This document shows positions 2,646-28,117 of a DNA stretch of 36,802 nucleotides, in pieces (position 1 is the stretch's first letter; each line of letters starts with the position of its first letter). The stretch comes from a virus. The DNA lies in IMG/VR virus record IMGVR_UViG_3300045919_000452, positions 1 through 36,802 of that record; one strand, given 5' to 3'. The translations under genes and the position numbers were made by a program. The notes under the pieces were generated by a model. That model was not told the origin of the DNA. It searched no databases and was given only the letters and a program-made list of their open reading frames with translations.

Positions 2646-2772
2646 AAAACAGACACTCGAAAGACAACAAAAAACACCCCTTGCGAGATGTCCTTGGTCC
2701 CAAACTGTCGGTGCGATTTGCCCCATTGTGCCGATTTCTCAGCTAAAAGCGCGTCGCTGTCGAGTAGCCCAG
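2526..2772 (-). ncRNA. Candidate small non-coding RNA (structured, about 245 nt)
   Basis: No convincing gene fills 2408-2787. On the minus strand an extended -10 promoter (2787-2779) predicts a start near 2772. The transcript would contain a strong GC hairpin (2575-2547) followed by GCTTC-TT-GAAGC and a run of five T (2542-2526), which looks like an intrinsic terminator with a very tight loop. Short peptides are possible but none has a good start context. The RNA is an inference. Confidence 0.3.
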
Positions 2773-2778
2773 AATATT

Positions 2779-2787
2779 ATTATAGCA
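2779..2787 (-). promoter_or_regulatory. Extended -10 promoter (TGCTATAAT)
   Basis: The minus strand reads TG-C-TATAAT directly after the stop of the small cysteine protein gene. No clear -35. It would transcribe the gene-free stretch 2772-2430. Confidence 0.45.
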
Positions 2788-3066: not shown

Positions 3067-3067
3067 A

Positions 3068-3190
3068 TTAGCCATTGATTATTATGTAAGCGAAATCGAG
3101 TAGGAGGCCTATGGCGAGGGTCGCAATGTATGGAGTTACTTTGCGAACGTAACGGCGAACGGTGAAATGTGTGTATAATTTACTGTGCAT
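3068..3190 (-). CDS. Small single-span membrane protein (40 aa)
   Basis: MHSKLYTHFTVRRYVRKVTP is followed by a hydrophobic stretch of about 18 residues (ATLAIGLLLDFAYIII). The basic N-terminal part and C-terminal hydrophobic helix suggest an inner-membrane peptide with its N terminus in the cytoplasm. The ATG lies 23 nt downstream of the predicted start of the 3220 promoter, making it the first gene of that operon. Such early membrane peptides can act on the host envelope or in superinfection exclusion; this is not shown here. Confidence 0.5.
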   Translation of the reverse strand: MHSKLYTHFTVRRYVRKVTPYIATLAIGLLLDFAYIIING

Positions 3191-3219
3191 GATAAATTAC
3201 TATTAACTTGTATGGGTAC

Positions 3220-3274
3220 AGTTTACTCTCGTTTATAGCTTGCGCAAGCGGTAAAGTGGACAATGTGTGGATAA
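3220..3274 (-). promoter_or_regulatory. Early minus-strand promoter with consensus DnaA box
   Basis: On the minus strand: TTATCCACA (3274-3266, exact DnaA-box consensus), 18 nt, -35 TTGCGC (3247-3242) within the perfect palindrome GCTTGCGCAAGC (3238-3249), 16 nt, -10 TAAACT (3225-3220). Predicted start near 3213. Downstream of the -10 it shares CTGTACCCAT with the 2383 promoter. Confidence 0.55.
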
Positions 3275-3290
3275 CTGAACTTGTGCGACA

Positions 3291-3365
3291 TTGTGTATTT
3301 TTCGTCAAGTGATATACTTCATGAAGCTCGTCAACACGCGACACTGCCATGCTTCGAGCTTTTTC
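3291..3365 (+). promoter_or_regulatory. Plus-strand promoter directly followed by a terminator-like hairpin
   Basis: TTGTGT (3291-3296), 16 nt, TGA-TATACT (-10 at 3313-3318). The predicted start is about 3325. AAGCTCG (3324-3330) pairs with CGAGCTT (3355-3361), followed by more T. The transcript would begin inside the hairpin and could end about 40 nt later; this looks like an attenuator or a tiny RNA. No convincing gene lies between here and 3500. Confidence 0.35.
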
Positions 3366-3443
3366 AATACTTTTTAGGTGATGTCGCCCGATGCCATATA
3401 CTGACCACGGTTGACTTGTTAGGGAGTGCGCGAGTGGGATTAC

Positions 3444-3473
3444 TTGCGCACTTTTCGCCCGACGTGATATAAT
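3444..3473 (+). promoter_or_regulatory. Late promoter upstream of the packaging genes
   Basis: TTGCGC (3444-3449), 18 nt, TGA-TATAAT (-10 at 3468-3473). Predicted start near 3480, 20 nt before the 17-residue peptide and the terminase genes. Best-looking plus-strand promoter in the divergent control region. Confidence 0.65.
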
Positions 3474-3499
3474 CTAAGTAATTAGTAATAAAAAACTAT

Positions 3500-3553
3500 A
3501 TGGCAAAAGCACACAAGAAAGGATGCAAGGGTGGCAAGGGCTGCAAGTGTTAG
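3500..3553 (+). CDS. 17-residue Lys/Cys-rich micropeptide
   Basis: ATG to TAG encodes MAKAHKKGCKGGKGCKC: six Lys, three Cys, four Gly. It is the first reading frame after the late promoter and begins with the same ATATGGC context as confirmed genes of this genome. No Shine-Dalgarno. It could be a real metal- or nucleic-acid-binding peptide, or a leader peptide for the terminase transcript. The amino-acid composition is far from random, but a frame this short cannot be proved by inspection. Confidence 0.4.
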   Translation: MAKAHKKGCKGGKGCKC

Positions 3554-3571
3554 TTGATATTTTGATATTTT

Positions 3572-3874
3572 ATGGCACAAGGTGGAAAACGAGCAGGAGC
3601 AGGTAAACCAAAAGGATATAAAGCCCCTCACACACTTGAGGCATCTGTTGCTAAGGCTCGCATGGTTGAGCGCATATCTGCTCGCACTGATGAGCTAATA
3701 GATAAACTGTTCGAGAAAGCACTAAGCGAGAATGGCGATACTGTTGCCATTAAAGAGTTGTTAGACAGAGGGTACGGCAAGCCACAGCAGTCCACCGACG
3801 TAACCTCTCTTGGTAAAGCAATCGAGGGCAACGCCATATTTTTAGCTGATTTTCATGCAGCAAATAGTAAATAA
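3572..3874 (+). CDS. Terminase small subunit-like DNA-binding protein
   Basis: A 100-aa basic protein whose N terminus GGKRAGAGKPKG (residues 4-15) matches the 'GGxRxGAGRPKG' DNA-binding arm common in phage small terminases and their homologues. A helical middle follows, then AIKELLDRGYGKPQQ, also usual in this family. Small terminases recognise the packaging site on phage DNA and load the large subunit. It overlaps the large terminase by 20 bases, the classic order. No clear SD precedes the ATG. Confidence 0.75.
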   Translation: MAQGGKRAGAGKPKGYKAPHTLEASVAKARMVERISARTDELIDKLFEKALSENGDTVAIKELLDRGYGKPQQSTDVTSLGKAIEGNAIFLADFHAANSK

Positions 3875-5132
3875 GGCATACGCGGGTATTTTTACAACAA
3901 ATAAGCGCTACACCATCCTTGGTGGTGGCCGTGGTGCAGGTCGCTCAACCGTAGCCTCTCAATACATTTTAGCTAAACTCATAGCACCTGAGTATTTTCG
4001 TTGCGCAATTATGCGCTTTATTTTGTCTGACATCCGCAACAGCTCATTTAGAGAAATTTGTGATCGCGCCGAGGAGCAAGGCATCCTAGGTACACTCGAC
4101 GTCAATGAAGGACAAATGACTATTTCATACGGCGCAAACTCTATCAACGCGCACGCGTTTCGTAAGTCTAGCGGCGACCAGAAAGCAAAACTAAAGTCTC
4201 TAGCAAACTATAATCAAGTGTGGGTTGAGGAGGCCGATGAGGTGCCCGAGGCAGATTTTATGCAACTCGATGACTCTTTACGCACAGTGAAGTCGAAAAT
4301 AAATATCATGCTCACATTTAACCCGCCACCAAAGACTCACTGGATAAACAAGCGGTGGTTTAATCTTTTGCCGTCGGGTGTGCAAAATTTCTATCTTCCT
4401 GAGTGCAAGGATGATGATGTGTTGTTTATACGTACAGACTGGCGCGACAACGACAAGAACATAGACGAGGGCACAAAGAAACGCTATGAGCAGTATCGAC
4501 AGACCAAACCTGAGCACTACTGGAACATGATACGCGGGTTTGTCCCGGAAACAATCAAGGGTAAAATATATTCAGATTGGCAAGAAATTGAAGAGCTGCC
4601 GCATGAAGCAAAATTGCTCGGGCACGCGCTAGACTTCGGCTTTGACCCCGACCCATCGGCAGGACTTTCCATATATTACTACAACGGTGGGTATATTCTT
4701 GATGAGGTTGTGTATCAGACACAGCTTGATAATGAGCAACTGGCGAACGTGTTCAAGAATAGGAAGAAAGCGCCCATCGTCGCCGACAGCGCAGAGCCGA
4801 AAAGCATTGCAGAAATGAATAAGTTCGGCGTTGAGGTGTACCCATGTGTAAAGGGTGCCGACTCGGTGCGCTTTGGCATTAAGCACGTGCAGTCGCTTCG
4901 TGTTTCGTACACTAGGCGCTCAGTTAATATTAAGGCCGAATACGATAACTACGCGTGGAAGATAAGTAAGGACGGAGAGGATGTGGGCATTGAAGACCCA
5001 AAGTGCATGAACCACTTAATGAGTGCCGCGCGCTATGGCCTGTCATACTTTGTCCACGAGGTTGATGAAGATGCCGAGCGCGCCGATCGTCTCTTGTCTC
5101 GTTTGCGCTTATCAAAAGAGCAGACAGTGTGA
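3855..5132 (+). CDS. Terminase large subunit (DNA-packaging ATPase/nuclease)
   Basis: A 425-aa protein of normal length. N-terminal ATPase: Walker A GGGRGAGRST (23-32; Arg in place of Lys), Walker B QVWVEEADEV (121-130) with catalytic Glu, and coupling motif IMLTFNPP (151-158). C-terminal RNase H-like nuclease: LDFGFDPD (Asp260, Asp264) and VADSAEP (Asp311). In the third acidic motif the expected Asp of 'NHxxDAxRY' is Ser390 (NHLMSAARY), an unusual change. It pumps DNA into the prohead through the portal and cuts the concatemer. Order small terminase - large terminase - portal is standard. Confidence 0.95.
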   Translation: MQQIVNKAYAGIFTTNKRYTILGGGRGAGRSTVASQYILAKLIAPEYFRCAIMRFILSDIRNSSFREICDRAEEQGILGTLDVNEGQMTISYGANSINAHAFRKSSGDQKAKLKSLANYNQVWVEEADEVPEADFMQLDDSLRTVKSKINIMLTFNPPPKTHWINKRWFNLLPSGVQNFYLPECKDDDVLFIRTDWRDNDKNIDEGTKKRYEQYRQTKPEHYWNMIRGFVPETIKGKIYSDWQEIEELPHEAKLLGHALDFGFDPDPSAGLSIYYYNGGYILDEVVYQTQLDNEQLANVFKNRKKAPIVADSAEPKSIAEMNKFGVEVYPCVKGADSVRFGIKHVQSLRVSYTRRSVNIKAEYDNYAWKISKDGEDVGIEDPKCMNHLMSAARYGLSYFVHEVDEDAERADRLLSRLRLSKEQTV

Positions 5133-5156
5133 TATTTATGAAAAAAAACATACACA

Positions 5157-5165
5157 TGGTATAAT
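5157..5165 (+). promoter_or_regulatory. Extended -10 promoter, probably leaderless
   Basis: TGG-TATAAT with -10 at 5160-5165 and no -35. The predicted start (about 5172) is one base before the ATG at 5173. Confidence 0.5.
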
Positions 5166-5172
5166 ATGAGAA

Positions 5173-5310
5173 ATGCCAAAGTATACCGACCCAAGGGAGT
5201 TTGCACTGATTCGGTCAATGTATTTTGACGCACCGGAAGAAGACCAACAAGAAGATGCTGATGAGCGTTATTTAGCAAGAGTGCGAAACAATAAAGACCA
5301 ATCACGATGA
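5173..5310 (+). CDS. Small acidic protein between terminase and portal (45 aa)
   Basis: MPKYTDPREFALIRSMYFDA followed by a very acidic stretch and a basic C terminus. Its TGA overlaps the portal ATG (ATGA), so the two are probably translationally coupled. Its own ATG lies at the predicted start of the 5160 promoter. I do not recognise it; position suggests a portal-assembly or head-associated role, but this is a guess. Confidence 0.6.
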   Translation: MPKYTDPREFALIRSMYFDAPEEDQQEDADERYLARVRNNKDQSR

Positions 5311-7166
5311 CCTATAAGATTTGCGAGGATGTTCAACTTCTTAAGAAGAACTATGACGAGCCTGTTGATATTCTCGATGGGTTGCCACATAAGCAGTCCG
5401 ATATTATTCGGATGGTTGAGTTTTATAGCAATTCAAGGTATCTCAATGGGCAAAAAGACGAGCGCAACCACAGAAAGTCCTACTATCAGATGATAAATGG
5501 ACAGTGCGACGTGGAGAACGCCGCCGTGGACATTGATACAAAAGACATGCGCGTAACGAGTGATGACAAAGACGACCAGACGCTCTCAATGTTGATGACG
5601 AAAGATATTTATCAGTGGATGAAGGACTCTAACTATGCTCTTTCACTGAATAAACAAAAGAAAACCCGCACAAAATACGGGTCACTGCTCGTTAAGAAAG
5701 TTATTGAGAAGAACGAGGACGGCGAGCGCATGTTGACCATTGAGGTGCCGGAATGGAAAAACCTCATCACCGACCAAGTCGATATCATAAACAATCCCAC
5801 TGTTGAGGTGCACTACATGACACCACTGCAGCTTATGAAAAAAGCGAATGTTTGGGACGGTGAAATGATAAAAGACGTTGTAGACAAGGCACGCAAAGCA
5901 GGCCCAGGGAAACGCATCGCTGTCTATGAAGTGCGCGGAGAGTTTCCACTCGATTACTATCTCGACGCAACCGGGGAAGAAAAAACAGAGAACGAAGATA
6001 AAGAAAACGAGTTTTCATACCAACTCTACTATCTCGTCGGAGGAGTTGAATCAAAGAAGGAGCAAAAGATGGAAGACCTAAAAGTGTTGTACGCCGAGAA
6101 CAACACTGAGCGCGTATATAAATATCTAGACAGAAAAGCGCGATCAGGCCGTGGCTTTGGTGTTGGCGTTTTTGAGGAGGGTGAAGAGGCGCAAGTTATG
6201 GTCAATGACGCCATTTTGAAGCAAAACCGCGCAATGGCCTATACGTCAAAAGTCATTGGACAGTCTGCGTCTAAGAAGCTCAAGGGGCGCAATATGATGG
6301 ACGAAGTTGATGACGGCACAATTTTGGAGCACGAGGAAAACAAGCCCATCAGCACACTAAGCCTTCTTCCAGCTGGAGGACTTGGTCAATATGAGTCCCT
6401 CGTCTCACAGTGGGTATCGCAGTTTGAGCGAGTAACGTCAGGATATGCTGCACAACGTGGGGAAACACCACCATCAGGCACTCCTTTTCGACTGCAGGCA
6501 ATGGTTGTTCAACAGTCGTCGTCAGTCTTCATTGACCTACAGGAGGAGTTTGGTATTTTTCAGACGGAGATCTTCAATGACTGGGTGATGCCGTTTTTGG
6601 CGTCACGATTAAATAAAGCACATATTCTTGCTTGGGAATTTACACCACAAGAAATGATGATGATGGACAGAAACTACGCCATACGTGAGCGCAACCGCAA
6701 GGCTAACGACATGATTCTTGATAGTCTAATAATCCCGACAGAAGAACAACTGCAAAAGTTCTATGATGAGGCAGACGCGCACATTAAATCGACCGGAGGC
6801 ATGCGCTTTGTTGAGATAATGAAAAACGAATATAAGAAAGCAAAGAAAAAAGTCACAGTTAATCCTACCGGCGAACAGCGCAACAAAGCAGCGGCCCTTG
6901 AGACTCTCAACAATATTCTCATCACATATTCAAAAATCCCCAACCTTGCTAGCGACCCAGTACTGTCAATGCTACTTATGGAAATTATTGAGGTATCCGG
7001 TTCAAGTATTTCCTCGTCGGACATTATGAGCGCAATTGAGGAGCAGAAAAAGGCGCAGAAAGAGCAACCGCTAACACCAGCAGACGCAACAGCCACTCCA
7101 GGCACACCATCGCCAATGACACTAGCCGCTAACCCAACGCCAGATGCTACAGGAGTTCCATCGTAA
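5307..7166 (+). CDS. Portal protein
   Basis: A 619-aa protein directly after the terminase, the expected place and size for a podovirus-type portal. It has an alpha/beta N-terminal half (residues about 1-250), a glutamate/lysine-rich middle, and a long helical region containing AGGLGQYESLVSQW and a serine/glutamine stretch (TPPSGTPFRLQAMVVQQSS) that is typical of portal families. The C terminus is a low-complexity Thr/Pro/Ala tail. The dodecameric portal forms the DNA entry ring at one vertex and binds terminase, then the tail adaptor. Assignment rests on size, order and general character rather than a single diagnostic motif. Confidence 0.82.
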   Translation: MTYKICEDVQLLKKNYDEPVDILDGLPHKQSDIIRMVEFYSNSRYLNGQKDERNHRKSYYQMINGQCDVENAAVDIDTKDMRVTSDDKDDQTLSMLMTKDIYQWMKDSNYALSLNKQKKTRTKYGSLLVKKVIEKNEDGERMLTIEVPEWKNLITDQVDIINNPTVEVHYMTPLQLMKKANVWDGEMIKDVVDKARKAGPGKRIAVYEVRGEFPLDYYLDATGEEKTENEDKENEFSYQLYYLVGGVESKKEQKMEDLKVLYAENNTERVYKYLDRKARSGRGFGVGVFEEGEEAQVMVNDAILKQNRAMAYTSKVIGQSASKKLKGRNMMDEVDDGTILEHEENKPISTLSLLPAGGLGQYESLVSQWVSQFERVTSGYAAQRGETPPSGTPFRLQAMVVQQSSSVFIDLQEEFGIFQTEIFNDWVMPFLASRLNKAHILAWEFTPQEMMMMDRNYAIRERNRKANDMILDSLIIPTEEQLQKFYDEADAHIKSTGGMRFVEIMKNEYKKAKKKVTVNPTGEQRNKAAALETLNNILITYSKIPNLASDPVLSMLLMEIIEVSGSSISSSDIMSAIEEQKKAQKEQPLTPADATATPGTPSPMTLAANPTPDATGVPS

Positions 7167-7359
7167 TACAGAGCTCGAAAAAGTTGTGCATGAGTATCTT
7201 GTCTCGTTCCTGTCTCGTCGCGCTGTTGAAAAGGTTTTCGCGCGCGAGGATGTAAGCGCGGTCGCTGAGGCAAAACAAATGGTCGATGAGGCGTTCAATA
7301 ACCTTGGTGTTCTATTCGATAGAGTAAAAATAAAGGACCACGTAGACGAAGCGCGCTAG
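7144..7359 (+). CDS. Small head-module protein, unknown function (71 aa)
   Basis: Overlaps the 3' end of the portal gene by 23 bases. Predicted almost entirely helical with alternating charge (LEKVVHEYLVSFLSRRAVEK). No recognised family. Lying between portal and scaffold it may assist prohead assembly. Confidence 0.6.
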   Translation: MLQEFHRNTELEKVVHEYLVSFLSRRAVEKVFAREDVSAVAEAKQMVDEAFNNLGVLFDRVKIKDHVDEAR

Positions 7360-7370
7360 GCTTCATCTTG

Positions 7371-7399
7371 GTGTCTCTGTTGTGGTATAATGGAGACAC
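7371..7399 (+). promoter_or_regulatory. Extended -10 promoter of scaffold/capsid unit, flanked by inverted repeat
   Basis: TGG-TATAAT has its -10 at 7386-7391. GTGTCTC (7371-7377) and GAGACAC (7393-7399) form a perfect 7-bp inverted repeat around it, a possible operator. The predicted leader (7398-7459) holds two hairpins: GATGTA/TACATC and CTGTG/CACAG. Confidence 0.5.
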
Positions 7400-7459
7400 A
7401 GAGATGTAGCTTATACATCACTAACAAGGGACTGTGACCTTTCACCACAGAATTAAACC

Positions 7460-7975
7460 ATGTCTGACCTAGACACAACTGAGGACATCACCTCTCAAAA
7501 TGATGCGGAGACAACCGAAAACAATTTAGACACAGAGGAGCAATCCGATGACGTCGAAGCATTGAGAGCATCAAACAAGAAATTGTTTGAGCGCACAAAG
7601 GCAGCAGAAGATAAGTTACGAGCACTTAAAAAGGAGCGCTACGATGCTCAAGTTAATGCTCAAGACAAAAATAAATTAGAAACTAACGCCGACGTTTCTG
7701 ACCGAGAGGAGCTGAAAGCAATCGCGCGAGGAATGTCTGACGAAGAGATAGATGAAGCAAAGTCTATTGCAAAAGGAAAGGACATAACGCTCACGGAAGC
7801 ATTTAAAACTAAGTCATTTCTTGCGTTTCAACGCGAATTAAAAGAGGAGACAAAGAAGGAGGATGCTAAACTTGGCGCAACTCGTGGTTCTACCCAGTCA
7901 AAGAAAGATTCTTTCAGAGCTGGTATGACAAGCGATGAGCACAAAGCACTTTGGAAAGAAAAATACGGCAACTAG
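7460..7975 (+). CDS. Scaffolding-like protein
   Basis: A 171-aa, strongly charged protein immediately before the capsid gene. The first 35 residues are acidic with many Asp, Glu and Thr. Residues about 36-75 form a likely coiled coil (VEALRASNKKLFERTKAAED). The basic C-terminal end (FRAGMTSDEHKALWKEKYGN) resembles the capsid-binding tail of scaffold proteins. Scaffolds direct prohead assembly and leave or are degraded before packaging. No protease domain is visible. The 60-nt leader has hairpins but no clear SD. Confidence 0.7.
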   Translation: MSDLDTTEDITSQNDAETTENNLDTEEQSDDVEALRASNKKLFERTKAAEDKLRALKKERYDAQVNAQDKNKLETNADVSDREELKAIARGMSDEEIDEAKSIAKGKDITLTEAFKTKSFLAFQRELKEETKKEDAKLGATRGSTQSKKDSFRAGMTSDEHKALWKEKYGN

Positions 7976-8009
7976 CACTAGAGAAAAAATAATCTAGCGC
8001 CAAAATAAT

Positions 8010-8909
8010 ATGGCATTTCCTACAGGCACATATACTGAATCTGACGCAACAGTATTCGCACCAAATGTATGGGGTTCTGTCGTCAATGATTTTCTCAAGA
8101 AGAAACTCGTGATGGCTAACTTTTTCGTTAATCGTTCAGACGAGTTATCAGGTGGAGGAAAGACTTTGGAGACACCAAATCTTACCGAAATGGCTGCAAA
8201 CGCAAAGACGAATGCAACAGCAGTCGCGCTCAACAGCCCAACAGAGACGAAAGTTACACTTACTGTCGATCAGTGGTACGAGGTATCGTTTGCTATTGAA
8301 GACCAGCAAGCAGCACAATTTAAGAAATCGTACTACTTGCAGGAGAAACTCGCAAAGAATGCAGCATACACAATCGCAGCAAAGCTCGATGTGGCGCTCG
8401 CAACTCTTTTCACCGGGTTCTCACAAATCACAGGTCTTTCAACAATTGGCCCCGTTGATTCAGATATTCGCAAGGCTATCGGTCTCTATGAGGCAGGCAA
8501 CAACGATCCAGAAGACGGAGCATTCTTCTTTGACAAGAAAGTCATTTGGAATGGTCTCATGGGAATCGACAAATTCACACTTGCAATTAATTCTCCAACG
8601 ATGGACCCAATTAATAACGGCGCAATGGGCAAGCTCTACGGATACCCTGTGTATGGCTCAAACAATGTGCAGTTCATTAGTGGTGCAGCGGGACGTGCAA
8701 ACGCACTCGCATCAAAGGACGCCCTTCACTGGGCAACCTCTCCTCTTGGTGTAATGTCAGAGGGTGGAATGTCAGGAGAAATGGGCGTTCGCGTACAATC
8801 GAACTACATCCCTGATTACCTTTCAACGATTACAACTGCAGATATTCTCTACGGTGTCATCGAGAATCGTGATCTCGCTGGTGTGTACATGAAAACAAAG
8901 GCGTACTAG
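8010..8909 (+). CDS. Major capsid protein (HK97-fold expected)
   Basis: A 299-aa protein after the scaffold gene and followed by a strong terminator, as expected for the most abundant virion protein. N-terminal ATVFAPNVWGSVVNDFLKKK and the region with VTLTVDQWYEVSFAIEDQQA are characteristic of a phage capsid family; the C terminus has the usual series of short beta segments (SKDALHWATSPLG, VRVQSNYIPDYLST). No N-terminal delta domain or protease site is evident, in line with a separate scaffold. The ATG is preceded by AATAAT without SD. Confidence 0.88.
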   Translation: MAFPTGTYTESDATVFAPNVWGSVVNDFLKKKLVMANFFVNRSDELSGGGKTLETPNLTEMAANAKTNATAVALNSPTETKVTLTVDQWYEVSFAIEDQQAAQFKKSYYLQEKLAKNAAYTIAAKLDVALATLFTGFSQITGLSTIGPVDSDIRKAIGLYEAGNNDPEDGAFFFDKKVIWNGLMGIDKFTLAINSPTMDPINNGAMGKLYGYPVYGSNNVQFISGAAGRANALASKDALHWATSPLGVMSEGGMSGEMGVRVQSNYIPDYLSTITTADILYGVIENRDLAGVYMKTKAY

Positions 8910-8933
8910 CCTTTAGTAGTGTCAAACATAATT

Positions 8934-8951
8934 CCCCCGCAAGGGGGTTTT
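8934..8951 (+). terminator. Intrinsic terminator after the capsid gene
   Basis: CCCCC-GCAA-GGGGG followed by TTTT, 24 nt after the capsid stop codon. Confidence 0.8.
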
Positions 8952-8952
8952 G

Positions 8953-8961
8953 TGTTATACT
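8953..8961 (+). promoter_or_regulatory. Extended -10 promoter of the glycosyltransferase cassette
   Basis: TGT-TATACT with -10 at 8956-8961, immediately after the capsid terminator; predicted start near 8968, 5 nt before the structured leader. Confidence 0.5.
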
Positions 8962-8972
8962 GAATATTATTA

Positions 8973-9022
8973 GCTTTTACGCCTTCTACTCACTCCATAC
9001 TCGTAAAAGCGTGGGGTGAGTA
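8973..9022 (+). promoter_or_regulatory. Structured mRNA leader with interlocked inverted repeats (A-B-A'-B')
   Basis: A, GCTTTTACG (8973-8981), pairs perfectly with A', CGTAAAAGC (9002-9010). B, TACTCACTCCA (8987-8997), pairs with B', TGGGGTGAGTA (9012-9022), one G-T wobble. A' and B' are separated by a single base, exactly as in the ATPase leader. Loops of 5, 4 and 1 nt are too short for a full pseudoknot, so alternative hairpins are more likely here. The SD (AAAGGGGG) follows B' at once. Confidence 0.6.
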
Positions 9023-9038
9023 AAGGGGGCATCTATAT

Positions 9039-9218
9039 ATGAATCAAGCAAATTGGGGAAGCGTTGTTGTCGCCAGTAGCCCAAAAAAGACAACAGCATC
9101 GTTCAAGGTTGATAGCCAGGGGAACATGGTGCAATTTGAGGAGCATGGCGACAATAGTGCGGAGGAGAAACTTAAAAGATTACAGCGGGCGCGCGCGAAA
9201 AAACTAGGCATAGCATGA
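9039..9218 (+). CDS. Small basic protein at head of glycosyltransferase cassette (59 aa)
   Basis: Starts MNQANWGSVVVASSPKKTTA and ends in a basic helix. SD AAAGGGGG is about 10 nt upstream. The stop overlaps the next ATG as ATGA, so it is coupled to the glycosyltransferase. It has no recognised domain. Its place between the structured leader and the enzyme suggests a decoration or acceptor protein, which is speculative. Confidence 0.6.
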   Translation: MNQANWGSVVVASSPKKTTASFKVDSQGNMVQFEEHGDNSAEEKLKRLQRARAKKLGIA

Positions 9219-10279
9219 AGACATATTTTATCTCAGGAGGACAAGATGGCTCGTCATATGTGCGCGCGCTGATGCCAATGATACATAATGGGTGGTGGGG
9301 CCAGAAAACCTCTCTACGGGGCAAATTGGACTCTAAGGAGCGTATGCTGGAGGGCGCTCTACAGGCAGATATTGTTGTATTTCAGCGCCCAATGCAGGGT
9401 CAGATGTTACAGGCGGCCAAACTACTAAAAGAAGCGGGAAAGAAAATAGTTATTGACCTAGACGACACGTACTCACCAGAAATGGGACTGCCCAGGCTTT
9501 TGAAGGAAATGATTGAGCGGCAAATAGATAATAAAATAGATGAGGTACATAATATGCTCAAAGAGTTCGCGCGTGAGGCAGATCTTATGACCGTGACAAC
9601 GCAATTTCTTGCAGACGAGTATAAAGATTTCAACAAAAACATTGTTGTGATACCCAACATGGTTGACCCAAGTGACTGGAATGAGCCGAAGAGAAATGAT
9701 GGGGAAAAAGTGCGTATTGGAATTGTCGGGTCTTCGGCGATGAACAAGGACAGCCTACTCGTCACACCACTACTACGGAATCTAGGGCGTCGGGACGATG
9801 TGCAACTTGTGGTATTTGGCATGCCGGCAGAAAAAGAAGTTGATGCGCGCAAGTTCTACGGCCACGAAATCGCATATTGGAATACAATGAATATTGAGTG
9901 GCACCATGCGGTACCCCTTGCAGACTACATGGACAAGCTTAATGACCTACGACTAGACATCATGCTTATACCTCGCGAGGATAACTATTTTAATCGCTGT
10001 AAGAGTAACGTAAAATTTCTTGAAGCGTCAATGTGCGAGGTGCCAGTTATTGCCCAGGGTTTTCCTGATGGGAATAGTCCGTACCAAGGAGTCGACGAGA
10101 AACAGCTTGTTATATGTAACACGATAGACGAATGGTCTGTTGCAGTAAATGCGCTTATACTTGATAAAAGCAGGCGCACTGAAATGGGTAAGTCTGCAAA
10201 AAAATATGTCTTAGAAAATTATAATATTAATAATAATGCAGAATTATGGCGAAAAGAGTACGTGAAGTTGCTAGTATAG
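9215..10279 (+). CDS. Glycosyltransferase, GT-B fold (GT4-like)
   Basis: A 354-aa protein. The N-terminal domain contains ADIVVFQRP and KIVIDLDDTY (residues 77-86), a signature seen in phage and surface-polysaccharide transferases. A linker VVIPNMVDPSDW leads to the C-terminal Rossmann domain with IGIVGSSA and, near residue 270, KFLEASMCEVPVIA, equivalent to the nucleotide-sugar-binding 'E-x7-E' region of GT4 enzymes. It transfers a sugar from an activated donor; donor and acceptor are unknown. First of three transferases lying between the capsid gene and the tail adaptor, where capsid or DNA glycosylation is conceivable. Confidence 0.82.
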   Translation: MKTYFISGGQDGSSYVRALMPMIHNGWWGQKTSLRGKLDSKERMLEGALQADIVVFQRPMQGQMLQAAKLLKEAGKKIVIDLDDTYSPEMGLPRLLKEMIERQIDNKIDEVHNMLKEFAREADLMTVTTQFLADEYKDFNKNIVVIPNMVDPSDWNEPKRNDGEKVRIGIVGSSAMNKDSLLVTPLLRNLGRRDDVQLVVFGMPAEKEVDARKFYGHEIAYWNTMNIEWHHAVPLADYMDKLNDLRLDIMLIPREDNYFNRCKSNVKFLEASMCEVPVIAQGFPDGNSPYQGVDEKQLVICNTIDEWSVAVNALILDKSRRTEMGKSAKKYVLENYNINNNAELWRKEYVKLLV

Positions 10280-10449
10280 ATGAAGTTGGGGGAATCATTG
10301 AAGTAAAGGACACTCCCGTTAAGACTGTGCGTAAGTTTTCTTTTGAAGAGGGATATCTTAGCTATGGAAACAGTGTATCTTTGTTTAAGATGAAAGATGG
10401 TTTGGAGCGCGCAACGCTTTTGGAAGAGCTTAATAAGTTAATAAAATAA
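10246..10449 (+). CDS. Small protein of glycosyltransferase cassette (67 aa)
   Basis: Overlaps the end of the upstream transferase gene by 34 bases. Mixed alpha/beta, with a basic start (MAKRVREVASIDEVGGIIEV) and an amphipathic C-terminal helix (ERATLLEELNKLIK). No known family. Tight packing in the operon supports expression. Confidence 0.6.
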   Translation: MAKRVREVASIDEVGGIIEVKDTPVKTVRKFSFEEGYLSYGNSVSLFKMKDGLERATLLEELNKLIK

Positions 10450-10450
10450 T

Positions 10451-10771
10451 ATGAATATACGAGTAACAGATAAGGATTTATCAAAGTGGTTATCAGAAAA
10501 AGATGTACTTGTGACCGAGGGGCGTGAACTGTCAAAGAAAATTGATGCGCTAGAGGAAGAGCGCAACAAGTGTGGCATGCAGATCCAAAAAATCAAGGAC
10601 AAGATTATCCCATTAGCAGAAAGCCTTGCAAAGCCTCACTTTGTGGAGTTTGATATGCTCACGACAATCAATCTTGATGGAGAGGAGGTTGTCCTTGAGT
10701 ATGTCAACCAGGTGGCCGAGTTTGAGAAGGCACTACGTGAAAAAATAAAAAATGAAAATACTGCTCAGTAA
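10451..10771 (+). CDS. Coiled-coil protein of glycosyltransferase cassette (106 aa)
   Basis: Residues about 15-60 form a coiled coil (SKKIDALEEERNKCGMQIQK), followed by a short beta segment and a charged C-terminal helix. One base separates it from the preceding stop codon and it overlaps the next transferase gene by 20 bases. Function unknown; it may be a virion or chaperone-like partner. Confidence 0.62.
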   Translation: MNIRVTDKDLSKWLSEKDVLVTEGRELSKKIDALEEERNKCGMQIQKIKDKIIPLAESLAKPHFVEFDMLTTINLDGEEVVLEYVNQVAEFEKALREKIKNENTAQ

Positions 10772-11579
10772 CTACTCACTTGGGTGGCTTGGTGGTACTC
10801 AGACATGGACAAAGACAATGGCGACAGAGTTGTCTCGACCTGGGCATGAGGTGCACGTATTTGCCGGGGATGGGAAGTATGACCTTTTGTCAGATTATCC
10901 ACGTGTAGATGACGACTATGATCTCGCGTTGGTCAATCATAATACGTGCCTATCTGCACTAGAGGGCGTCAATATAAAGAAGCGCGTATTTACTTCTCAC
11001 GGGATAATTCCTGAGCTTGAACGTCCCATTCCCGGGTCCGACGTGTATATTGCCGTGTCCGAGGAGGTGCAGGAACACTTAAAAAAGCAGGGTTTTGAAT
11101 CAGATGTTATCCGCAATCCGATAGATAAAGATATTTTCATTGGTTCACCAATAAACGAGAAATTGCAGAACGTGCTCTTCTTATCGAACTACCAGGGAGA
11201 CGCGCTTGATGTGGTAACTAGTGCGTGTGAGGGTCTTAATCTTCGAGTGGTTGGAAAAGAAAACAAGGGAGATGCCCTTGAAAATATCCGTTGGGCAGAT
11301 TTAGTCATTGGTCTGGGTCGCACAGCACTTGAAGCAATGAGTTGCGGACGCAACGTTATTGTCTATGACTATAATGGGTCTGATGGTATCGTAAACACGG
11401 AAAGCATCGTTGAGTTGCGGAAGAATAACTGTTCAGGGCGCAGGTATGGCTTGAAATTATCTGCAAAAGACTTGCGTCGCCTGTTAGATAAGTACGACCC
11501 AAACTTAAATATGAGAAATTATATAATCAAAAACAATAATGTCCGCGATATTGCCCAGCAGTACCTGTCTTATTACTAG
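10752..11579 (+). CDS. Glycosyltransferase, GT-B fold (GT4-like, short)
   Basis: A 275-aa protein, shorter than usual for GT4 (about 350). The N-terminal Rossmann half begins MKILLSNYSLGWLGGTQTW, with the glycine-rich turn that binds the acceptor side, and contains VFTSHG and VYIAVSEEVQEHLKKQGF. The C-terminal half has LGRTALEAMSCGRNVIVYD (188-206), the conserved donor-binding motif with catalytic-region Glu. The length suggests a trimmed C-terminal domain. It overlaps both neighbours, consistent with one polycistronic unit. Confidence 0.82.
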   Translation: MKILLSNYSLGWLGGTQTWTKTMATELSRPGHEVHVFAGDGKYDLLSDYPRVDDDYDLALVNHNTCLSALEGVNIKKRVFTSHGIIPELERPIPGSDVYIAVSEEVQEHLKKQGFESDVIRNPIDKDIFIGSPINEKLQNVLFLSNYQGDALDVVTSACEGLNLRVVGKENKGDALENIRWADLVIGLGRTALEAMSCGRNVIVYDYNGSDGIVNTESIVELRKNNCSGRRYGLKLSAKDLRRLLDKYDPNLNMRNYIIKNNNVRDIAQQYLSYY

Positions 11580-12255
11580 GATAAGAAATGAGGAGAAAAT
11601 CATTGGTGATTTTCTAAAATACTATCAACAGCTAGACATATTTGTATATGACGACTACTCTACCGATCGGACTCTCGAGATAGTTAAGGCGCACAAAAGT
11701 GTAAAGGGAATCATTGAAGGAAAGGAGTGGGACACAGACCGCACACGCGCCGAATACACGACGCGTCAAGCTGTTTTTGAGCTGACAAAAGGATATGAAT
11801 GGGTGATTTACGTTGACGCCGATGAGCGCATTGAGTTTCCTGACATAGACTATGAAGCATATGACGGCGTTTCTATGAAGCTGTTTGATTTCTATATCAC
11901 TAACGACGACAAGTACGAAAATTACAAAAACAGGAAGCGCATGGGGTGTGAATATAGAGAAATATTGATGATGTTTCGCAACCTTCCCGGGCTAAAGTAC
12001 GAACACCGCGACCAGCGTGAGATGAGGCTTCCCGATACTGCGCGTATTGCCCACGCAGGATACGTGAAACACTATGGCAAAGCAATTTCAATTGAAGAAT
12101 GGGAGAGCACATGCGACTACTACATAAACTACTTCCCGGAGCCATACAAAAGCAAGTGGAGAGAGCGCAAAGGAAAAGCGGTGCACACACAAAGTGATTT
12201 TGGCTCTCCGCTTATAACGTGGGAGATGAAAGAAGATTTTGGTTATCCATTATAG
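11539..12255 (+). CDS. Glycosyltransferase family 2-like (GT-A fold)
   Basis: A 238-aa protein. The start of the GT-A domain shows CLITRIRNEEKII, then DDYSTDRT (38-45), the nucleotide-binding loop, and YVDADER (91-97), with the metal-binding DxD. The C-terminal part (HAGYVKHYGKAISIEEWE) is like that of small GT2 enzymes acting on polysaccharides. It ends the glycosyltransferase cassette; the next gene has its own promoter. The first 9 residues may be dispensable because the ATG lies 41 bases inside the upstream gene. Confidence 0.85.
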   Translation: MSAILPSSTCLITRIRNEEKIIGDFLKYYQQLDIFVYDDYSTDRTLEIVKAHKSVKGIIEGKEWDTDRTRAEYTTRQAVFELTKGYEWVIYVDADERIEFPDIDYEAYDGVSMKLFDFYITNDDKYENYKNRKRMGCEYREILMMFRNLPGLKYEHRDQREMRLPDTARIAHAGYVKHYGKAISIEEWESTCDYYINYFPEPYKSKWRERKGKAVHTQSDFGSPLITWEMKEDFGYPL

Positions 12256-13292: not shown

Positions 13293-14117
13293 ATGGCAGA
13301 CAATTATACTTTTACGGCGGGCGCGGGCTCAATCGGTGCAGCAGATGATATTGGGGGCGTTCTATATCCACGCGTTAAGATGACGCACGGGGCAGATGGA
13401 TCGTCGACGGATGTGTCTACCGCATCACCAATGCCAGTCTCTCTTGCGAACACATCGGCAAACGCAACGGCGATTAAGACTGATGGTTCTGCCGTAACCC
13501 AACCAGTCAGTGGCACAGTTGCAGTCTCTACAATCAACTCAGTCGCGCCCGCGTTTGGTTCGGGTGTGCGTGGAGCGACGGTGCAGCGCGTCACCATCGC
13601 AACTGACGACACAGTGAAGACGGACGGTTCAGCAACGACTCAGCCAGTCAGTGGCACTATTGCTGTCTCAACCATAAACTCAGTAGCACCCGCGTTTAAT
13701 ACTGGCGTCCGTGGCGCGACAGTACAGCGCGTGACAATTGCGACGGATGATGTGGTTCAGACACAGAGTGTCCCTGTTGCTACTGGTGGCCTTTCGACGT
13801 TTCATTTAGTTTCGGCCGCGACGACTAACGCAACAAACATCAAGGCATCCGCAGGGCAAGTCTACGGATGGTATATCTACAACTCAAACGCCGCGGCGCG
13901 TAAGGTCGCTTTTCATAATACCGCAGGAACACCCACAGCAGGTGCATCTATTTTCTTCTCTCTCATGATCCCCGCAGGAGGAGCCGCGAATGTCGAATTT
14001 TCAAACGGTATCCCATTTTCTACAGGAATCGGAATCTCAACGGTAACAGGACTTGCCGACAACGACAGTGTTGCAGTCGCGGCGAATGACCTCATTATCA
14101 ACATTTTCTACAAATAG
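13293..14117 (+). CDS. Virion protein with duplicated 47-residue beta repeats
   Basis: A 274-aa protein starting MADNYTFTAGAGSIGAADDI, an N terminus I have seen on phage structural proteins that carry the segment VLYPRVKMTHGADG. Two tandem 47-residue units follow (residues 62-108 and 109-155), each with VSGTVAVSTINSVAPAF and RGATVQRVTIATDD. The C-terminal 110 residues form a beta-rich domain ending NDLIINIFYK that resembles a jelly-roll. It is probably a surface decoration or tail-associated protein. The two units are nearly identical in protein but heavily recoded in DNA. Confidence 0.65.
   Translation: MADNYTFTAGAGSIGAADDIGGVLYPRVKMTHGADGSSTDVSTASPMPVSLANTSANATAIKTDGSAVTQPVSGTVAVSTINSVAPAFGSGVRGATVQRVTIATDDTVKTDGSATTQPVSGTIAVSTINSVAPAFNTGVRGATVQRVTIATDDVVQTQSVPVATGGLSTFHLVSAATTNATNIKASAGQVYGWYIYNSNAAARKVAFHNTAGTPTAGASIFFSLMIPAGGAANVEFSNGIPFSTGIGISTVTGLADNDSVAVAANDLIINIFYK
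13476..13757 (+). repeat. Two tandem 141-bp units, recoded
   Basis: Units 13476-13616 and 13617-13757 encode the same 47-residue repeat. Counting codon by codon: 16 identical, 26 synonymous changes, 5 amino-acid changes. Confidence 0.85.
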
Positions 14118-22817: not shown

Positions 22818-23224
22818 AGAATATTGAGATCAAAATATCTAAAGATGAGTTGCGCAGCAAACTTGGCGTACTTCCACCCATGGAGGCCGATGATATCGCG
22901 ACAAAGCTGGAAACACTCGAAGGAAACGAGCGCCTTAATATTTCTGCAATCAACGGACTTGATGATTATGATGAGGTGCGTAGGCTTGCGAAGACAAAGC
23001 AGGCAGTAGCCGCATATGGAGGGTCTCAGTCCGGAGGTACTGGCGGCTCAGGCGCCACAGCATTCACCGCCCTCACTGACGTGCCCTCATCGTACGCCGG
23101 GCAGTCAGGCAAGCTCGTCAGTGTCAAAGCAACAGAGGACGGCCTAGAATTTACTGCTCCCGGAGCTGGCTCAGGTGATATCACGCGCTTACAAGTCTAT
23201 GGTATAATATCATTACGTATATGA
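22814..23224 (+). CDS. Fibre-base or fibre-attachment protein
   Basis: A 136-aa protein. The N-terminal half is helical; the second half is a Gly-rich linker followed by AFTALTDVPSSYAGQSGKLV and GLEFTAPGAG, a motif very common in phage fibre shafts. It overlaps the giant fibre gene by 4 bases (ATGA), so the two may have arisen by splitting of one fibre chain or may assemble together. The terminal GSGDITRLQVYGII resembles shaft joins. Confidence 0.65.
   Translation: MKNIEIKISKDELRSKLGVLPPMEADDIATKLETLEGNERLNISAINGLDDYDEVRRLAKTKQAVAAYGGSQSGGTGGSGATAFTALTDVPSSYAGQSGKLVSVKATEDGLEFTAPGAGSGDITRLQVYGIISLRI
23200..23208 (+). promoter_or_regulatory. Extended -10 promoter inside the fibre-base gene
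   Basis: TGG-TATAAT (-10 at 23203-23208), within the last codons of the upstream gene; predicted start about 23215, 6 nt before the fibre ATG. Confidence 0.45.
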
Positions 23225-26214
23225 TTATTCTCGACTCAACACTACGAAAACTACAACTTAAGCTGTCAGGTGCGACAACAACAAACGAGCTTCCATTTGT
23301 TGTCTCGTACGTTGATATCACCTCGACGACATTTATCGCTGGATCGTCCAATGGTTTATCGAGTGGTGCGTCTTCTGTTGACGTCCTCAGCGCGCCAGGA
23401 GCAGCAACACAGCGCCAGGTGAAGTTTCTTAGTGTACAGAATAACGACACGGCCTCTGCGACGGTCACGGTAATCTACAATGATAATGGAACACAGCGCA
23501 CAATCTGGAAAGGTCTTCTTGCTGTCGGGGATAATCTCCAATACACAGACGGCGAGGGATTCAGAATAACGAACAGCGACGGCTCGATTAAGACGGCGAG
23601 TGTAGGTGGAGGTTCAGGCATCCTAGGAGTATCCGCAGGGACGGCCTCGATGTCTAGTGGCACACTTTCGTTTGCAAACTCCAATGGCGTGTCTTTCGGG
23701 CTCAACGGAAGTACACTCACAGCCTCTGTTGCGACAAACTACCAATCGCAAGGTGCGTATCTTACAACCGCGATGGCCTCAAGCCGTGGTACTGATTTTC
23801 TTAATGTCTCTGGTGGATTTTCAGGAACAAACATATCGGGCACACTTGCAAGCAATGGTCTGCAACTCTCAGTTGCCGCAGGCGGTGGTGGAGCCGATGG
23901 CTATAACATTTTGGCCGCTGGTTCTCAGACGGCCAATACCACTGGCTCGGTGCTCTTTAATAACGCAAATGGGATTACGTTCGGAATGAGTAACAGTTCA
24001 GTTATTACGGCATCCTACAACTCAACACAATTTCAAACAGCGGGCGCATATCTCACCACTGCACGTGCAAGTAACGATGCTATCGGGACAAACACTGCTC
24101 TCACCGCAAACGGAGTGTCTATGACAGCGAACTCGTCAGGGCTGTCGCTCAATTTCCCCGCCTTTCTCACGACTGCCGACCTCTCACAGAACAGCTCAAA
24201 GTATGCAGGAATAAACGGCGCGATCACTGGAGGAAGCATCACCGTTAATACGTCAGGCGTATCAATCAATCTTCCCGCATATCTCACGACGGCTATGGCC
24301 TCGAATCGAGGGAGTGACTTTCTCAATGTGTCAGGAGGCTTCTCAGGGACAAATATCTCAGGCACCTTGGCGAGCAATGGCCTACAGCTTTCCGTTGCAG
24401 CAGGTGGAGGGGGCGCAGATGGGTACAACATCCTCGCCGCGGGTACTCAAACCGCTAACACGACAGGCTCTGTCCTTTTCAACAATGCGAATGGTATTAC
24501 TTTTGGCATGAGCAACAGCTCTGTCATCACAGCTTCTTATAATTCAACGCAGTTCCAAACAGCAGGTGCCTACCTAACGACAGCGCGCGCGAGCAATGAC
24601 GCTATTGGGCTTAACTCTGCACTCACGGCAAATGGGGTATCTATGACCGCAAACTCCTCGGGACTTTCTTTGAACTTCCCTGCGTTCTTGACCACGGCAG
24701 ACTTGTCGCAGAATAGTTCACGCTATGCTCTGACAGGGTTTACAACAACCACAGCCGCAGGTTCGGTTATCGCAGGCACACATGACACAAACGGGCTCAA
24801 GCTCGGCGTGCCAGCGTTTCTCACAACCGCACAGGCTCCTGGGGCATATCTCACGACCGCACGCGCATCGAATGATGCAGTTGGGCTCAATACAGCACTT
24901 ACGGCAAACGGAGTCTCGTGGACAGTCAACTCATCGGGAATCAGCTTGAATGTCCCTGCATTTTTGACGACGCAATCAGCAGATAGTGTCGGATTTTATG
25001 CGATCAGCAACACGACAGGCCAGTCAAGCAGTAGCACAGTGGATATTCGTAGCCTCAGCTTTGTTGGCGCAGGAATTGCGTCTGTGGGAATGAGCGCAGG
25101 GAGCATGATATTCAGCGTACCGTCAGGTGGTGGTGCGGGCGATGGCGGCAATACCCTTGCTGTCGGAGGTTCAACGGCAGGAAGTAACTCTCTCGTGCTT
25201 TTCAGCAACTCACCCACGGTAACATTTGGTATGGCAGGAAATACCATCACCGCAAGTGCCGCAGGTGGAGGAGGTGGAGGCGTAACATTGGCTGAATGGG
25301 AGCCAGTGCCAGGACTAAGCACGTTTGGTACATCTCTTGCACAAAATTCGATGTATATCAACACTCTTCTTGCGCCCAATAACATTACCGCAAAATATAT
25401 GTTGATGGGTGTTGTTATGACAGGTGGATGGACAACATCAACGCCCGTGACAAATAGTACTGCAACAACGGGAAGCTCGGGCAGTGCTTCTGCGGGCCAG
25501 TCAATGAATTTCTATATGTTCACTGACGGAACGGGTGGGCTGGAATCAAATCTCTATACCATGGCTACCGCGCAATTGACATTCAGCACGAACATTAGCT
25601 GGAGCCAAACAAACAGCAATACGACGACAGGAACGCAGTCTATCGGCTCCACCATGGGCTTTACGTATGGGCTTCCTGTGATTACAAGTGGGACAATGAC
25701 AAGCGTCAATGCTGCCTCAACCGTAACAACATGGGGAAGCTCAACGGGAGCCTTCACTGGCACAAGCACATTTAGCACGAACGGAACATCGACATCTGGA
25801 TGGCCAGGAGGAACAAGTAATGCAACATGGGCTGGTTCGCGTATGTTGTGGGTACCGCTCAATACGAGTTTTAGTGGTGGTGAGTACTGGATGGGAATTC
25901 AGCGCTCTAGTACGACAGCGGGTTTTGCTGTTGCGGGAACATATTCTTTCCTCGCGCAGTCGTTTACAAGCTATGACAGCAATAGCCGTTGGGCACCACT
26001 TGGCTATGCGACATCACAGCTCTCTTTCCTTAGTGCACCATTTGGCCACGTAAATGGCATGTTTTCAACGTCCTACAACGCGACAAGTAACTATGCGGGA
26101 GGATTTGGTTCAGCTGGAGCAATTGCAAAGACTCATGTATTCGGGAGCAGTGTGACCAACACAAGTGGTACAGTAAGCCGTTTCTACAATAGATTTATGG
26201 CAGAAATCTTCTAG
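23221..26214 (+). CDS. Giant tail fibre / receptor-binding protein with internal repeats
   Basis: A 997-aa protein, the largest of the genome. An N-terminal beta domain (residues 1-130, with VDITSTTFIAGSSNGLSSGA) leads to a shaft built of repeats: AYLTTA-x-AS, GVSFGLNGSTLTASV-like units and LNVSGGFSGTNISGT. Two 151-residue units (about 179-329 and 353-503) differ at only 6 residues; a third, partial unit follows from about 540. From residue 680 a non-repeated Ser/Thr/Gly-rich domain with many aromatics (WAGSRMLWVPLNTSFSGGEY) forms the likely receptor-binding tip. The two units are recoded at most synonymous sites. Confidence 0.85.
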   Translation: MIILDSTLRKLQLKLSGATTTNELPFVVSYVDITSTTFIAGSSNGLSSGASSVDVLSAPGAATQRQVKFLSVQNNDTASATVTVIYNDNGTQRTIWKGLLAVGDNLQYTDGEGFRITNSDGSIKTASVGGGSGILGVSAGTASMSSGTLSFANSNGVSFGLNGSTLTASVATNYQSQGAYLTTAMASSRGTDFLNVSGGFSGTNISGTLASNGLQLSVAAGGGGADGYNILAAGSQTANTTGSVLFNNANGITFGMSNSSVITASYNSTQFQTAGAYLTTARASNDAIGTNTALTANGVSMTANSSGLSLNFPAFLTTADLSQNSSKYAGINGAITGGSITVNTSGVSINLPAYLTTAMASNRGSDFLNVSGGFSGTNISGTLASNGLQLSVAAGGGGADGYNILAAGTQTANTTGSVLFNNANGITFGMSNSSVITASYNSTQFQTAGAYLTTARASNDAIGLNSALTANGVSMTANSSGLSLNFPAFLTTADLSQNSSRYALTGFTTTTAAGSVIAGTHDTNGLKLGVPAFLTTAQAPGAYLTTARASNDAVGLNTALTANGVSWTVNSSGISLNVPAFLTTQSADSVGFYAISNTTGQSSSSTVDIRSLSFVGAGIASVGMSAGSMIFSVPSGGGAGDGGNTLAVGGSTAGSNSLVLFSNSPTVTFGMAGNTITASAAGGGGGGVTLAEWEPVPGLSTFGTSLAQNSMYINTLLAPNNITAKYMLMGVVMTGGWTTSTPVTNSTATTGSSGSASAGQSMNFYMFTDGTGGLESNLYTMATAQLTFSTNISWSQTNSNTTTGTQSIGSTMGFTYGLPVITSGTMTSVNAASTVTTWGSSTGAFTGTSTFSTNGTSTSGWPGGTSNATWAGSRMLWVPLNTSFSGGEYWMGIQRSSTTAGFAVAGTYSFLAQSFTSYDSNSRWAPLGYATSQLSFLSAPFGHVNGMFSTSYNATSNYAGGFGSAGAIAKTHVFGSSVTNTSGTVSRFYNRFMAEIF
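23755..24729 (+). repeat. Two 453-bp fibre repeat units with recoded DNA
   Basis: Units 23755-24207 and 24277-24729 align without gaps over 151 codons. Hand count: 37 codons identical, 108 changed synonymously, 6 with an amino-acid change. Confidence 0.88.
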
Positions 26215-26264: not shown

Positions 26265-26978
26265 ATGGCAGAACTAATAATGATGGACGGTGGTGGTCGT
26301 CATTCGATGGATTTAAAAAAGACCAACGAAAGATTGACCAAAGATGGTTCATGGAAGAAGCAGCGTGTGATAGTTATTTTACCCACCGCCAATATGATTG
26401 CGGCAAAAGTTGCCCTGTCACATTGGAATCTTATTTTCCCTCCCAATAATGGAGTTGTGCGCATTTTAGCCATAGGAGCAGAGGTTGGCGCTGCATACAG
26501 CGAGGCAATCGAGGGCGTGCTTGCACACCCCGAACTTTCACAATGGGAGTACATTCTCACTATTGAAAGTGACAATATGCCACCCGCCGATGGGGTGCTC
26601 AAACTTATTAAAGACATGGATGAATACCCACAATACGACTGTATTGGTGGGCTTTATTTTTGCAAAGGAGACGGAGGATGTGCACATATTTGGGGTGACC
26701 CCAAAGACCCTGTGCTCAATTTTCGGCCACAAATCCCCGTACCCGATACAGTGATGGAGTGCAACGGCGCGTCAATGGGATTCCACTTGTGGAGGATGAA
26801 GATGTTTAAAGACAAAAAACTACGCCGTCCACTATTTAAGACAGTCGCAGGAGTGGAGGGGGTCGGCACGCAAGACCTCTATTTCTGGTCAGATGCAAAA
26901 AAATACGGATATAGAACGGCGGTCGATACGTCAGTTAAGGTCGGGCACTATGATGTTACAAGCGATATTGTGTGGTAA
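26265..26978 (+). CDS. Glycosyltransferase-like protein, GT-A fold
   Basis: A 237-aa protein. RVIVILPTANMIAAKVALSH begins a Rossmann-like domain; YILTIESDNMPPADG (97-110) holds the metal-binding DxD-like ESDN; later NGASMGFHLWRM and the end VDTSVKVGHYD, where His can act in metal binding, match a phage GT-A family that I recognise by pattern. It could glycosylate the fibre just upstream or the virion. Its promoter predicts a leaderless mRNA. Confidence 0.72.
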   Translation: MAELIMMDGGGRHSMDLKKTNERLTKDGSWKKQRVIVILPTANMIAAKVALSHWNLIFPPNNGVVRILAIGAEVGAAYSEAIEGVLAHPELSQWEYILTIESDNMPPADGVLKLIKDMDEYPQYDCIGGLYFCKGDGGCAHIWGDPKDPVLNFRPQIPVPDTVMECNGASMGFHLWRMKMFKDKKLRRPLFKTVAGVEGVGTQDLYFWSDAKKYGYRTAVDTSVKVGHYDVTSDIVW

Positions 26979-26985
26979 TAAAAAC

Positions 26986-27300
26986 ATGAAATACGAAATA
27001 ATAAATAAAGAAAACGTTTATAAAATAAAGTATTCAGATAAAGATAAAGAAGTCATATCGTCTCATTCTTTTAAGAACGAGCAAGATGCTGTTGATTTTA
27101 TTTTTTCAACGGAGCATTTTTCAACAGAAAATAACGGCAATATTTCTATCACCATAAATAATGGGAAAAATAAACATGATGAAACAATAAAATATCCCGT
27201 CCTAGCATATAGGAATTTTTCGCGTAACGATGACGGTGTGTATAAATACAAGGGACACTGGTTTGAGGTTAAGGGGGAAAAAATTAATTTAATTAAATAA
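26986..27300 (+). CDS. AT-rich moron-like protein, unknown (104 aa)
   Basis: Begins MKYEIINKENVYKIKYSDKD. Lys, Asn and Ile make up much of the protein and the DNA is visibly more AT-rich than its neighbours, a sign of recent transfer. The ATG 7 bases after the upstream stop is preferred; a longer in-frame start would overlap the transferase gene. Alpha/beta fold likely; no family recognised. Confidence 0.65.
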   Translation: MKYEIINKENVYKIKYSDKDKEVISSHSFKNEQDAVDFIFSTEHFSTENNGNISITINNGKNKHDETIKYPVLAYRNFSRNDDGVYKYKGHWFEVKGEKINLIK

Positions 27301-27302
27301 AC

Positions 27303-27548
27303 ATGAAAAAAATTTTAATCTGTACGCTTGTAGCCATATCAGCAGTATCTATTGGATATACTTTTAGCGAAGTACCCGTTGGGCACGCCTCTACAGAAGA
27401 AAAACCTACTGCTTCTTGGTCAATATCAGCACCAACCGCAGGTGCACCTTTCCAAGGAAGAATTACCTATATAGAAAACAACGGAGATAGATGCTATTCC
27501 GTTATATCTTTTGATGGTGGGTCTGCTATTGTTTGTAAATTTAAATAA
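27303..27548 (+). CDS. Small secreted protein with signal peptide (81 aa)
   Basis: N-terminal MKKILICTLVAISAVSIGYT is a typical Sec signal (Lys-Lys, hydrophobic core, small residues near 28-30: GHAS). The mature part (about 50 residues) has two Cys (CYSV, VCKF) and ends at the second, perhaps a disulfide. Base composition matches the preceding AT-rich gene. A phage-encoded exported protein outside the lysis module often alters the infected cell surface, for instance to exclude other phages; this is inference. Confidence 0.7.
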   Translation: MKKILICTLVAISAVSIGYTFSEVPVGHASTEEKPTASWSISAPTAGAPFQGRITYIENNGDRCYSVISFDGGSAIVCKFK

Positions 27549-27550
27549 AC

Positions 27551-28117
27551 ATGTCCAAAAAAACAAAAGTAGCTGCATTGCTCAACCTCGACCTAGGCTG
27601 TGGCCCAAACCCAAAACCCGGTTTCGTAGGAGTTGATAAGTACAAAATGAAAGGTGTTGATGTTGTTCTTGATATTGGAAAAGACAAGTGGCCATGGAAA
27701 GACAACTCAGTTGATGAGGTGAACTGCACACACTTTCTTGAGCATATCACAAACTTTAACGGCAAATGGGAGCGTACACACTTCTTCAATGAGCTTTACC
27801 GCGTCATGAAAAAGGGCGCCAAGGCGACTATTGTTATTCCTCATTGGTGCTCAGAGCGCTACTATGGCGACCCCACACACTGCGAGCCATTCAGTGAAAT
27901 GGCGTTCTACTATCTGTCACAGGACTGGAGAGATACACAAGCTCCTCACTCTGATTTTAAGTGGAACAAGAAGGGGTATAACTGTAACTTTGCCTGCACG
28001 TGGGGATATTCTTTGCGCCAAGACCTCATGACACGCAATCAAGAGTATCAAATGAACGCGATTACTAAAGAAAAAGGAGCAGCACAAGACATTATTGCGA
28101 CATGCACCAAGCAGTGA
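27551..28117 (+). CDS. SAM-dependent methyltransferase, class I
   Basis: A 188-aa protein. Motif I LNLDLGCGPNPKPG (residues 11-24), an acidic residue at the end of strand 2 (VGVDKY), then VDEVNCTHFLEHI and ELYRVMKKGAKATIVIPH, the usual sequence of Methyltransf_11-type enzymes. The substrate is unknown; proximity to a glycosyltransferase suggests sugar or virion modification rather than DNA modification. It has no target-recognition domain. Confidence 0.8.
   Translation: MSKKTKVAALLNLDLGCGPNPKPGFVGVDKYKMKGVDVVLDIGKDKWPWKDNSVDEVNCTHFLEHITNFNGKWERTHFFNELYRVMKKGAKATIVIPHWCSERYYGDPTHCEPFSEMAFYYLSQDWRDTQAPHSDFKWNKKGYNCNFACTWGYSLRQDLMTRNQEYQMNAITKEKGAAQDIIATCTKQ

Follow-up and report, generated by a model that had tools for sequence, protein, structure and literature searches.

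A phage fibre gene with two shaft units nearly identical in protein and saturated at third codon positions

The fibre gene of a phage contig contains two units of 151 codons that are nearly identical in protein, while their third positions have reached saturation or agree slightly less often than expected by chance. With a probability of roughly 70%, the pair is explained by an old duplication within the gene whose shaft protein was then held in place by very strong purifying selection. The fibre repeat most likely reflects an ordinary mechanism, acting within an undescribed vocabulary of hyperconserved fibre words.

The window (the whole stretch of DNA analysed, a phage contig of 36,802 bases) carries the fibre gene after its structural genes. 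The features considered here are as follows.

23221 to 26214, plus strand: fibre gene, 997 residues, rich in S, T, N, G and A, last in the structural run.
23755 to 24207, plus strand: unit 1 of the repeat comparison, 151 codons.
24045 to 24062, plus strand: LTTA word boundary, one of several (also at 24159, 24276 and 24843), family D4.
24208 to 24276, plus strand: spacer of 23 codons (69 nt), the word GINGAITGGSITVNTSGVSINLP, 90–100% shared with the fibre loci L054, L011, L010 and L006.
24277 to 24729, plus strand: unit 2 of the repeat comparison, 151 codons, offset from unit 1 by 522 nt.
24841 to 24972, plus strand: third, older partial copy of 44 codons, 86% protein identity, with two serine codon classes switched.
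25291 to 26214, plus strand: C-terminal head (start approximate), which is the variable part of the fibre and a putative receptor-binding head.

Elsewhere on the contig Pfam recognises a large terminase, an SU10-type adaptor and an M23 peptidase; the fibre gene itself has no sequence match in Pfam, PHROG or PDB, its sole Pfam row being a sub-threshold chance hit. Gene position and head divergence correspond to a tail-fibre layout, that is, a repeat shaft and a C-terminal head that varies, encoded close to where the structural genes end. The head is weakly similar to the heads of L044, L048 and L118 only (26–34%), and a pattern search of viral contigs with the C-terminal part of the fibre returned no relatives. 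An AlphaFold model of one unit reached a pLDDT of 55, and a fold search with it was dropped because the model was too poor. The surroundings of the gene include three glycosyltransferases recognised by Pfam before it (9215–12255) and, after it (26265–28117), a methyltransferase and a weak PHROG match to a glycosyltransferase.

Units 1 and 2 share 145 of 151 residues (96%), the six differences being S10N, T13S, S57T, T112L, T114S and K149R. A recount reproduced exactly the numbers given in the initial annotation: of the shared residues, 108 are written with different synonymous codons and 37 with the same codon, 3 of these being Met. By codon position, the bases agree at 142, 147 and 40 of 151 sites for the first, second and third position, respectively; overall nucleotide identity is 72.6%, and the longest exact run of DNA is 8 nt. 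The serine residues common to both units keep their codon class, TCN or AGY, at 20 of 20 sites. Hence the units are linked by single-base steps rather than by a codon-by-codon redraw, and the serine classes indicate that they have a common DNA ancestry.

The saturation that had been proposed for the third positions is confirmed, with codon identity at or slightly below chance depending on the expectation used. Without Met, the units use the same codon at 34 of 142 degenerate positions. Drawing codons independently from gene or genome usage predicts 47–50 (P 0.002–0.010 across four usage tables), and a codon shuffle inside each unit predicts 42.4 (P 0.06). Single-step codon models that keep the serine class place the neutral saturation floor of codon identity at 0.356; the observed 0.239 lies below it and thereby speaks against pure divergence, at a nominal P of ~0.001 for a pair that was chosen as extreme. 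At fourfold sites, 17 bases are the same, with 31 transitions and 42 transversions, compared to 22.8, 22.4 and 44.8 expected from composition. When only codons that agree in their first two bases are counted (the same-block statistic, adopted because serine class confounded total codon identity), 33 are identical versus 48.4 expected (z −2.83). The suggested dN/dS comparison of the two units gives dN of ~0.02–0.04 and a dS far above it: not estimable by NG86, 1.6 by YN00, and at the bound in maximum likelihood.

Eight scans of viral contigs yielded ~140 fibre loci. Relatives comprise IMG/VR metagenome contigs, a single annotated genome from a spring phage and a single contig of a metagenome-assembled genome (MAG); among cultured phages, none carrying these fibre words was found. 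The pairs analysed, which had to span 30 residues or more with a protein identity of 85% or higher, consist of 107 within-gene repeat pairs from 60 genes and 1264 between-phage word pairs, the latter mutually non-independent. The fibres of the family are mosaics of recurrent words: NSNGVSFG occurs in 40 of ~90 loci and TTARASND in 26. Between phages these words retain a protein identity of 85–100%, whereas their codons agree 1.09 times as often as chance predicts, and serine class agreement is 0.59 versus 0.55 expected. The GC3 of genes with these words spans 0.13 to 0.90, and even in the 304 word pairs whose GC3 differs by more than 0.3 mean protein identity is still 90%. Since words in different phages are equally scrambled, saturation is not special to repeats on one molecule. 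With this pattern recurring in dozens of unrelated phages, the fibre shaft seems to be made of protein words that selection holds near-fixed while the underlying DNA drifts freely.

The terminase of this phage was detected in 2 of 30 word-sharing records, several of which are fragmentary, and its capsid in 0 of 30, in a search run on partly fragmentary records without a positive control. Among the heads of word-sharing fibres, 255 of 707 pairs match at all, with a median identity of 32% among these. A first genome scan returned no relative and a second returned one, a MAG contig binned as Melioribacter (L144, JAHEZQ010000039.1; positions 5214–7365). This contig has 31% GC and encodes these fibre words with AT-rich codons (GC3 0.11). 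It may point to a host among the Ignavibacteria, or be a phage sequence that was binned wrongly.

Repeats within single genes form a decay series. Codon identity of long within-gene pairs is 0.91 in L065, 0.81 in L128, 0.60 in L062 and 0.49 in L007, and at chance in L041, L018 and L082, while protein identity stays at ~0.85–0.99 (mostly 0.90–0.99); units 1 and 2 sit at the far end. Copies of many ages, from L065 to the pair studied here, therefore coexist without homogenisation of their DNA. Within-gene duplicates that are not yet saturated have an NG86 dN/dS of ~0.02–0.17, with 0.017/0.78 for the 417-residue duplicate of L062. The fibre ORF of that locus (1–9303) is 3101 residues long or longer and holds many repeats whose synonymous divergence is intermediate, among them the tandem pair of 417 residues (98% protein, 60% codon identity); of all single genes, it is the one best suited to dating how repeats decay. 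The decay series fits duplications of varied age under strong purifying selection, so that avoidance of recombination is not needed to account for it. Together with the low dN/dS of younger duplicates and the equal saturation of words between phages, it lends good support to the first of the two readings offered in the initial annotation, in which the duplication is very old and its protein extremely constrained.

We propose that a segment of 522 nt was duplicated in tandem within the fibre gene, probably long ago in this phage lineage, which would have given a longer shaft. Unequal exchange may have produced the duplication, at the motif encoding LTTA, which is found repeatedly where units begin or end. 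This is the short motif with the highest DNA conservation, and a role as seed for such exchange is possible. Purifying selection would then have purged almost all amino-acid replacements from the shaft while synonymous changes piled up until the third positions kept no memory of the copy; shaft copies would arise and disappear by birth and death, without homogenisation by gene conversion. The near-constancy of shaft words across phages is probably due to the need of each word to fold into a repeating multimeric shaft, and shaft assembly would accordingly be the source of the protein constraint. A model of pure divergence for units 1 and 2 requires a dN/dS of at most 0.004, at least fivefold below that of the younger duplicates.

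The reading that the initial annotation had preferred is that selection has removed DNA identity to stop recombination. According to it, long identical stretches are deleted by recombination or slippage, the survivors are those that have diverged synonymously, and selection goes on favouring such changes until the copies are no more alike than chance, or less. We consider this unlikely for units 1 and 2, even though the pair lies below the neutral floor, has a same-block deficit, and has a longest identical run that is short (7th percentile). A broader version holds that selection against recombination within the gene pushes adjacent repeats throughout the fibre family to a codon identity lower than chance, which would be nature's equivalent of engineered codon scrambling; it is slightly more doubtful still. 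Selection against identity also draws on the adjacent within-gene pairs (gap of less than 40 codons), 4 of 32 of which have z < −2 compared to 20 of 1264 between-phage pairs (Fisher P 0.002, post hoc, as the cut-offs for gap and z were set after seeing the data). Once young pairs are removed, adjacent pairs are slightly below between-phage pairs (P 0.01–0.03), and they show less third-base identity though their serine class is more often kept. However, the unselected comparison that includes young pairs gives P 0.52, and the distributions of within-gene and between-phage pairs are similar in their lower half. Because the plain expectation from summed squared frequencies is biased upward for within-gene pairs, an unbiased estimator was substituted, which weakened the signal from adjacent repeats.

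Further observations count against both versions. Words in different phages cannot recombine inside one gene, yet they are almost as scrambled. Relatives such as L065 and L128 carry repeats that are near-identical in DNA. Among 107 pairs, ~0.1 would be expected at P 0.001, but units 1 and 2 were picked as extreme; in the same gene, the pairs of either unit with the third copy are not below chance. A family-wide avoidance of long identical runs was considered and rejected, since the longest runs of adjacent pairs lie at a mean percentile of 0.50 (SE 0.06) and are not shortened. Selection for recoding is not established, and what persists of it is a suggestive deficit in units 1 and 2 and in adjacent pairs that hints at selection against DNA identity.

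The contig encodes a second structural protein (gene 13293–14117) with a 45-residue tandem repeat (13476–13750) of 91% protein identity, whose codon identity is at chance (16 of 41 versus 15.1 expected). As a possible replication case it had no matching phage or plasmid record. A control covering 1707 further ORFs from the fibre loci gave only a few minus-strand repeats, with codon identity at or above chance; five rows are the same repeat in different loci.

It is very improbable that units 1 and 2 were obtained separately from different phages by module exchange, such that the duplication is only apparent. Words do move or persist among unrelated phages with saturated codons, but the serine class agreement between this fibre and the words of other phages is 57 of 106 sites, far from the complete agreement between the units. 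The proposition that the units differ in codon composition was rejected (P 0.57), and the 151-residue phrase occurs in this fibre gene only, the longest comparable match in other phages being 56 residues. Composition, serine classes and word order therefore agree on a single origin, and the suspicion that the units had different sources finds no support. Finally, it is scarcely credible that the pattern results from short-read assembly dropping or breaking contigs with identical repeats and leaving diverged ones: the contigs are metagenome assemblies and cultured counterparts were not found, but relatives with identical runs of 134–170 nt do assemble, and ascertainment that removes identical repeats cannot yield codon identity at or below chance.

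Fibres are commonly regarded as among the fastest-changing phage proteins. The near-identity of shaft words across phages with no detectable similarity in terminase or capsid, and with heads that, where comparable, are only ~32% identical, implies that constraint on the shaft can be separated from variation of the head. The family is also a ready data set for testing whether repeat genes evolve away from their own DNA identity.

The nearest annotated record is the Manatee Spring podovirus ctKR88 (MW202524.1), which has related fibre words and, like the present phage, glycosyltransferase and methyltransferase genes around the fibre. It differs in that the words are only 41–47% identical, the protein is annotated as hypothetical and no host is given. 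In synthetic biology, codon scrambling or diversification likewise encodes one protein sequence in different DNA, by a deliberate and arbitrary choice of codons to stop recombination (PMC12365220, PMC10094428). The fibre, in contrast, keeps its serine classes, which points to gradual descent, and an anti-recombination purpose is only putative. Intraprotein paralogous repeats have been compared by dN/dS, as here, in the survey of Persi et al. 2016 (PMC5120217), who describe relaxed or positive selection between copies and a horizontal divergence faster than the vertical one; unlike those fast-diverging repeats, the fibre copies are held nearly identical in protein. A known parallel is polyubiquitin, whose tandem repeats are near-constant in protein with many synonymous differences. 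As reviewed in PMC10457151, its repeats are discussed in terms of birth-and-death (Nei et al. 2000) and concerted evolution (Sharp and Li 1987), and the synonymous variation is attributed to purifying selection combined with birth and death, or homogenisation, at a slow pace. The fibre family corresponds to birth-and-death evolution of this kind, with dS far above dN and copies of mixed age. In comparison with polyubiquitin, it is a phage fibre shaft, its units are much longer, a single gene already shows complete saturation, and its words are common to unrelated phages, in varying order.
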